From contig NZ_JADWYI010000001.1 in NCBI RefSeq assembly GCF_016904885.1, positions 2,108,001 to 2,172,000 on the forward strand: DNA of 64,000 bases, given 5' to 3'. Every line of letters starts with the position of its first letter. Position 1 is the first letter of the stretch. Below the pieces are notes generated by a model. That model searched no databases. It had not been told where the DNA came from and saw nothing but the letters and a program-made list of their open reading frames with translations. The stretch is from Archangium primigenium (GTDB taxonomy: Bacteria; Myxococcota; Myxococcia; Myxococcales; Myxococcaceae). The translations under genes and the position numbers were made by a program. Below, in pieces: positions 9,330 through 17,564 of the stretch.

Positions 9330-9530
9330 CGCGAGCGCGACAGTACGCACGCGCATCCCCGCGCGCTACAGGCCTGAAGCCCTGTGTCGAAGTGCCGCGA
9401 AACGCGGCGAGGGCCGAGAATTCGGCTCCGGAGCGCACGCGCGTGGCGTTCATTCCCCCGTTTCGGGGCCTTCGAACGCGCGCGATGCCGAAAAATCGGC
9501 ACGCCACGCGTTGCACTACATCACCATGCG
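9330..9530. other. Non-coding stretch with a cluster of short hairpins
   Basis: No gene is supported here. Four perfect small hairpins follow each other: GCCGCG-AAA-CGCGGC (9394-9408), GCCGA-GAAT-TCGGC (9413-9426), CCCCG-TTT-CGGGG (9456-9468) and TGCCGA-AAAA-TCGGCA (9486-9501). A longer-range 10-bp stem (CGCGTGGCGT at 9440-9449 with ACGCCACGCG at 9501-9510) encloses the last two. The cluster sits between the divergent GH1 start and the promoter of the histone-like gene. It could be a structured RNA, an insulating terminator array or a protein-binding region; nothing in the sequence decides. Confidence 0.5.
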
Positions 9531-9559
9531 TTGACACACTGGCAAGGCATCTCTACTCT
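9531..9559 (+). promoter_or_regulatory. Sigma-70 type promoter for the histone-like gene
   Basis: A consensus -35 hexamer TTGACA (9531-9536) and a -10-like TACTCT (9554-9559) are separated by exactly 17 bases. Transcription would begin near 9566, giving a leader of about 65 bases before the ATG at 9633. This is one of the best vegetative promoter matches in the window, fitting an abundant DNA-binding protein. Confidence 0.7.
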
Positions 9560-9632
9560 TCACCACAAGCACTCCTCAGCCGAGTGCAGGCCCCACTCCT
9601 AGCGAGTGGCGGTAACAAACGGAGGCTTTAAG

Positions 9633-9872
9633 ATGGCCGCGAAGAAGAAGACCGCGAAGAAGCCGGCGACGAAGAAGACCGCGAAGACCGCGAAGACCGC
9701 CGCGAAGAAGACCACCCGCAAGACCGCCGCTCCCCGCACCGCGAAGAAGGCGGCCGGCAAGACCACGGCCAAGAAGGCCGCGGGCAAGAAGACCGCCGCC
9801 AAGAAGGCCCCCGCCCGCAAGCGGACGGCGAAGACGGCCCCCGAGGCCGCTCCCGCCGAGGACGAAGGCTAG
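9633..9872 (+). CDS. Histone H1-like Lys/Ala-rich DNA-binding protein
   Basis: A 79-residue, extremely basic protein made almost wholly of AAKK/TAKK-type repeats, ending in a short acidic tail (EAAPAEDEG). It resembles bacterial histone H1-like proteins that bind and compact DNA through a disordered lysine-rich domain. The ATG at 9633 has a ribosome site GGAGG (9621-9625) seven bases upstream, which decides it over an earlier in-frame GTG. A good promoter lies upstream and a terminator downstream, so it is probably a single-gene, highly expressed unit. Repetitive Lys codons (AAG) make it prone to repeat-number variation. Confidence 0.88.
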   Translation: MAAKKKTAKKPATKKTAKTAKTAAKKTTRKTAAPRTAKKAAGKTTAKKAAGKKTAAKKAPARKRTAKTAPEAAPAEDEG

Positions 9873-9900
9873 ACTCAGCCCACTGATCTGGCGCAGTTTG

Positions 9901-9939
9901 AACGGCTCGGCGGATTCTCCGCCGGGCCGTTCGTGTTTC
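9901..9939 (+). terminator. Rho-independent terminator after the histone-like gene
   Basis: AACGGCTCGGCGG (9901-9913) pairs with CCGCCGGGCCGTT (9919-9931), with one G-U pair and a five-base loop, followed by a T-rich run ending at 9939. It separates the histone-like gene from the next gene. Confidence 0.8.

Positions 9940-17486: not shown

Positions 17487-17564
<78 letters not shown>

Follow-up and report, generated by a model that had tools for sequence, protein, structure and literature searches.

The window, the whole 64 kb stretch of DNA that was analysed, comes from a myxobacterial genome of approximately 9.5 Mb (G000), and the segment of interest (9390–9512) is flanked by a divergent beta-glucosidase-type gene on the minus strand, named by eye, and by a gene on the plus strand (9633–9872, ATG at 9633) for a lysine/alanine-rich histone H1-like protein of 79 aa that begins with MAAKKKTAKKPATKK. 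Scores of the latter against Pfam HC2 (19.8 bits, cut-off of 40) and against the NCBIfam histone H1-like model (18.5 bits, cut-off of 80) fall below the respective cut-offs. Direct reading of the sequence places a GGAGG ribosome-binding site at 9621–9625 (+), kept in the aligned relatives, and a strong intrinsic-terminator-like hairpin lies directly 3' of the gene at 9899–9933 (+). The near-consensus promoter that the first-pass annotation had pointed out holds up as a predicted sigma-70-type promoter (9531–9559, +) composed of TTGACA at 9531–9536, a 17-bp spacer and TACTCT at 9554–9559; its -35 TTGACA is found in 10/10 aligned H1 loci (the window's own counted) and its -10 reads TACCAT in several relatives. 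A stricter promoter scan reported no site at 9531–9559.

The same annotation had described 9390–9512 as a hairpin cluster and its count is exact: the segment holds four perfect stems, each 5 bp or longer and closed by a loop of 3–4 nt, at 9394–9408 (6 bp), 9413–9426 (5 bp), 9456–9468 (5 bp) and 9486–9501 (6 bp), together with a 10-bp perfect long-range stem formed by 9440–9449 and 9501–9510. The density does exceed chance: dinucleotide shuffles of the segment contain 0.99 such hairpins on average and four or more in 61 of 3000 cases, which makes the density moderately unusual but not rare. Three non-overlapping 123-bp stretches with at least four hairpins were found in the 64 kb window (9394, 41674 and 56116), meaning that such a cluster is uncommon, yet not unique. 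The folding energy of the segment gave z = -2.2 as RNA (5/200 shuffles as low) and z = -2.8 as DNA (2/200). Hairpin density by itself is a weak signal, and the notable point is the presence of one palindrome in two of the four hairpins, the one at 9413–9426 and the core at 9487–9500 contained in the fourth hairpin being copies of a single GAGGCCGAAAAATCGGCCTC-like element.

These copies are referred to here as the predicted distal operator (9410–9429, core GCCGAGAATTCGGC at 9413–9426) and the predicted proximal operator (9484–9503, core GCCGAAAAATCGGC at 9487–9500). With a 20-position matrix whose training set consisted solely of 25 unique H1 sites, the window's own not among them, they score 22.0 and 22.3 respectively and are the only two sites in the 64 kb to reach at least 15. 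In an alignment with nine relatives the proximal copy, the stretch that follows it and the -35 TTGACA are strongly conserved, while the other hairpins vary freely. The sequence that separates the proximal operator from the -35 (9504–9530, +) ends in TACATCACCATGCG and holds a near direct repeat (CCACGCGTTG/CCATGCGTTG). It is invariant or almost so at most columns of 9508–9530 in an 18-row alignment and may be the binding site of a second regulator.

H1 loci were collected by means of the promoter pattern TCACCATGCGTTGACACA in one genome per species, which returned 32 stretches, 25 of them counted as named Myxococcaceae H1 loci (Myxococcus, Corallococcus, Archangium, Pyxidicoccus, Hyalangium, Citreicoccus and MAGs). 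When up to two mismatches are allowed, 25/25 of these loci have the proximal palindrome at -34 to -36 relative to the promoter pattern and 24/25 have the distal one close to -110 or -121, the spacing between them being approximately 75 or 86–87 bp, i.e., two classes that differ by 11–12 bp or about one helical turn; a third palindrome was found at -146 in two H1 loci. Both palindromes also occur in L150 (the end of a MAG contig) and in L151. The latter record (BNCN01000019.1) bears the label Comamonas sp. KCTC 72670, but its H1 locus is of the Myxococcus type, and it is probably mislabelled or contaminated. Five stretches are unrelated (L144, L153, L162, L172 and L173), one of which, L172, contains a one-mismatch chance match. 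No site was found within 350 bp upstream of the H1-like paralogues located elsewhere in the relatives (seven loci; the start of the paralogue at an eighth locus, L012, was not found).

Three readings of the cluster had been offered initially: a structured RNA from an upstream start, a terminator array and a protein-binding DNA platform. A structured 5' leader RNA or riboswitch would agree with the dense hairpins and with the folding energy (z = -2.2 to -2.7), but is very unlikely, since in an alignment of 18 H1 loci (the window, 13 of the 25 named loci and four further H1 loci) every covariation measure lies at or below the shuffled mean: 66.6% of cells are paired in the originally annotated structure and 66.8% in shuffles, two-sided pair changes number 8 against 8.2, and the covariation score reaches 0.066 where shuffles give 0.073. 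Of the five stems, three are not conserved (9394–9408, 59.6% of cells paired; 9456–9468, 43.3%; the long-range stem 9440–9510, 46.5%), the long stem being largely kept only in its 3' arm, which adjoins the conserved promoter block. The two palindromes remain near-unchanged across loci without compensation, the proximal one having 96.7% of its stem cells paired and zero compensatory changes; conservation is seen for these two elements as sequence but neither as covariation nor for the other two hairpins and the long stem. In the consensus fold the two operators form pairs with one another, which two copies of one palindrome are able to do, and one of the 17 pairs shows a compensatory change. 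An Rfam search of the whole window returned nothing at 9390–9512 and only a tRNA at 17487. Also speaking against a leader RNA, the conserved promoter sits downstream of the hairpins, and the palindrome stands upstream of the promoters of unrelated genes as well, with flips in orientation. An array of terminators preventing read-through between the two divergent genes is hardly credible: the hairpins of this intergenic gap are indeed G+C-rich, but no terminator-like site (a G+C-rich stem with a T run after it) was found at 9390–9512 on either strand, the flanking genes diverge so that no transcription there is in need of termination, and the same sites stand at promoters elsewhere.

The palindrome is widespread in the family. 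The pattern GGCCGRAAAATCGGCC, with at most one mismatch, has 703 matches in 94 Myxococcaceae genomes versus 33 for the reversed pattern, or approximately 7.5 matches per genome, three of the 94 genomes being without a match; in 85 genomes from elsewhere in the phylum there are 79 matches versus 14. Eighty of these places were read for target genes, with gene calls made by codon composition and by eye. Genes recurring next to the palindrome are smc, pomY followed by pomZ, dnaE, pilM (a non-chromosome gene) and a gene for a SNF2-type helicase, together with ORFs of 130 aa (with paired CxxC), 92 aa, 169–176 aa (coiled-coil) and 196 aa, and single genomes add HU (L064), scpA (L190), a deoxynucleoside kinase (L189) and a class II ribonucleotide reductase (L068). 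Several of the 80 places have no clear target gene, and some of the genome-wide matches are located inside coding sequence (e.g., L103 and L106) and look like chance. At L060 (G002:C1:11608100-11612500), in one relative, two near-identical copies 65 bp apart stand several hundred bases before an oxidoreductase-like gene. Pfam confirms SMC, PilM, HU, the deoxynucleoside kinase and the class II ribonucleotide reductase; the remaining names rest on reading of the sequences and, for pomY, also on the published layout. The gene at the head of the pom operon was initially taken for PomX, a name dropped in favour of PomY, whose coiled-coil and HEAT layout is described in PMC10307791.

The target list derives from pattern matches, and the upstream regions of its genes were scored with the H1-trained matrix, taking the best score in 280 bp upstream at thresholds of 19.5 and 15; at loci near contig ends the upstream window may be misplaced, mainly losing true sites. 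Within the family, smc has a site in 12/16 loci at both thresholds, and in 13/16 in total when L200, at a contig end, is included with its score of 31.5. The corresponding numbers at 19.5 and 15 are 13/20 and 17/20 for pomY, 7/12 and 8/12 for the coiled-coil ORF (the AT-hook ORF below), 9/21 and 12/21 for the 130-aa ORF (the zinc-finger ORF below) and 3/16 and 4/16 for dnaE. No site was found upstream of recA (0/17) or ftsZ (0/19) in the family, and among background windows 0/603 reach 19.5 and 3/603 reach 15. Outside the family nothing scores at least 15: smc 0/11, dnaE 0/12, recA 0/13 (including a second copy from one genome), ftsZ 0/11, pomY 0/5, the zinc-finger ORF 0/4 and the AT-hook ORF 0/1. 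Three matches of the ftsZ set, having no locus or a partial gene, were left unscored. The site is absent at smc in 3/16 family genomes and at dnaE in 12/16, the window's own genus included, three of whose four members have no more than a decayed copy at that position. As in the operators of a regulon, one motif stands before orthologous genes across genera at a conserved distance, and it is absent from unrelated promoters and from background.

The coiled-coil ORF contains the AT-hook RGRPPK in 12/12 sequences (L055, L100, L111, L121, L128, L185, L281, L283, L284 and L286–L288), has no Pfam or NCBIfam match and is likely an uncharacterised chromosome protein. The zinc-finger ORF (L053, L182–L184 and L293–L317), with its pair of CxxC motifs and its basic stretch, is likewise without a Pfam or NCBIfam match and is present in 21/23 family genomes and in 4/16 genomes of other families; in three genomes it is preceded by a doubled operator with copies 82 bp apart. 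The orientation of the A-tract flips between orthologous zinc-finger-ORF sites, which speaks for a palindrome of DNA, as expected if it is bound in that form. The 92-aa ORF has no Pfam match, and the 196-aa ORF, for which a HolA/HolB-like identity was considered and dropped on rereading, resembles by eye only a degenerate sigma-54-activator AAA domain.

With these data the platform reading can be weighed together with that of a mobile repeat. As a binding platform the cluster was described in terms that approach what is observed for two of the four hairpins, but a general nucleoid-associated protein (such as CdbA, CarD or the H1-like protein itself) suits the sites less well than a specific regulator and is unlikely. 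The central A-tract would suit AT-hook or minor-groove binders, and one target does encode an AT-hook protein; against this, there are only about 7.5 one-mismatch matches per family genome, and sites this few, mostly at promoters, are better explained by a sequence-specific regulator. In the case of CdbA of Myxococcus xanthus, which shares with the present sites the bacterial family and a connection to chromosome biology, passages of PMC7156744 report 569 peaks and a GC-rich direct repeat with a 4-bp gap, in contrast with the inverted repeat with an A-tract centre found here, and the bound promoters given there do not include chromosome-organisation or division genes. That the palindrome is a dispersed repeat of the REP/MITE type that came to lie before genes is extremely improbable: such repeats are also short palindromes in several copies per genome, but would not be expected before the same orthologous genes and, from genus to genus, at near-fixed distances (smc, -38 to -68; pomY, mostly -123 to -208) with flanks that differ between genes.

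Binding of the palindrome by a dedicated regulator agrees with the general features of operators of dimeric transcription factors, which are inverted repeats with a short fixed spacer, sometimes doubled, in the promoters of a conserved gene set; unlike those already described, this one was matched to no known factor or published consensus in the literature searched. The DdiA/LexA DNA-damage response of M. xanthus (PMC12288472) likewise involves regulators of DNA-related genes in the same family, and a term search of that paper returned no binding motif. The palindrome is missing upstream of recA in all 17 family loci. Cell-cycle regulons are represented in alphaproteobacteria by those of CtrA and GcrA, and the present gene set would resemble them in placing genes of replication, the chromosome and division under a single regulator, but differs in motif and lineage. 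Neither the exact motif strings nor a description of such a regulon was found in the literature searched, of which most subscription papers were not part; the general kind, an operator set of a bacterial regulator, is known, while the factor and the gene combination appear to be undescribed. Two candidates for the regulator itself were considered and set aside. The zinc-finger ORF, suggested by its doubled operator in some genomes, is not singled out by co-occurrence, as it is present in a family genome without a motif match at one mismatch (G009) and in the 4/16 other-family genomes, and an XRE-type regulator gene divergent from pomY occurs in one genome (L175), with a different gene at that place in L108.

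The position of the sites may give an indication of the sign of regulation. Relative to predicted promoters, with the start assumed to lie 7 nt after the -10 (four loci each for the zinc-finger ORF, pomY and smc), the site centres are near -73 and -147 at H1, near -53 at the zinc-finger ORF, at about -105 to -108 at pomY and at about +16 to +20 at smc. Sites upstream of the predicted -35, as in the first three cases, suit an activator, and a site near +17, as in smc, suits a repressor; this mixed placement is compatible with either sign and only weakly favours a dual regulator that activates H1. From upstream an activator might touch RNA polymerase from the same helix face, the -53 site of the zinc-finger ORF and the -73 site of H1 being 20 bp apart, and the double site at H1, in rough helical register, suggests two bound dimers at operators that may act together some 7–8 helical turns apart. 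The smc promoters (L195, L196, L199–L204, L207, L114, L120 and L139) share another conserved block, approximately GGTCA-CGCTTGATC, at and just upstream of the predicted -35, which is possibly another regulatory element.

In conclusion, 9413–9426 and 9487–9500 are most probably, judging from conservation and placement, operators of a putative regulator, probably dimeric, that would bind the palindrome by recognising (GA)GGCCGA-AAAA-TCGGCC(TC) and co-regulate chromosome and division genes in Myxococcaceae. The proposed set would comprise the genes for the H1-like histone, SMC, the AT-hook protein, the zinc-finger ORF, PilM and the SNF2-type helicase and the pomY-pomZ operon, joined by dnaE in some genera and by HU, scpA, the deoxynucleoside kinase and the class II ribonucleotide reductase in single genomes, and may be co-regulated with growth or the cell cycle. 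A more far-reaching proposal, to which we give somewhat less than an even chance on these sequence comparisons, is that a dedicated Myxococcaceae transcription factor acts as a chromosome-cycle regulator through this one palindromic operator, timing the supply of the histone-like protein, the SMC condensin, PomYZ and the AT-hook protein and, in some genera, that of the products of replication and dNTP-supply genes.

To our knowledge, no transcriptional regulator of Myxococcus is known to tie together chromosome organisation, replication and division-site placement. The palindrome could serve as DNA bait for fishing out the protein, and comes with a list of targets, among which the zinc-finger ORF, the 92-aa ORF and the AT-hook protein become candidates for chromosome or cell-cycle functions. 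If true, such a regulator would be a bacterial equivalent of an S-phase gene programme, with an origin independent of CtrA.
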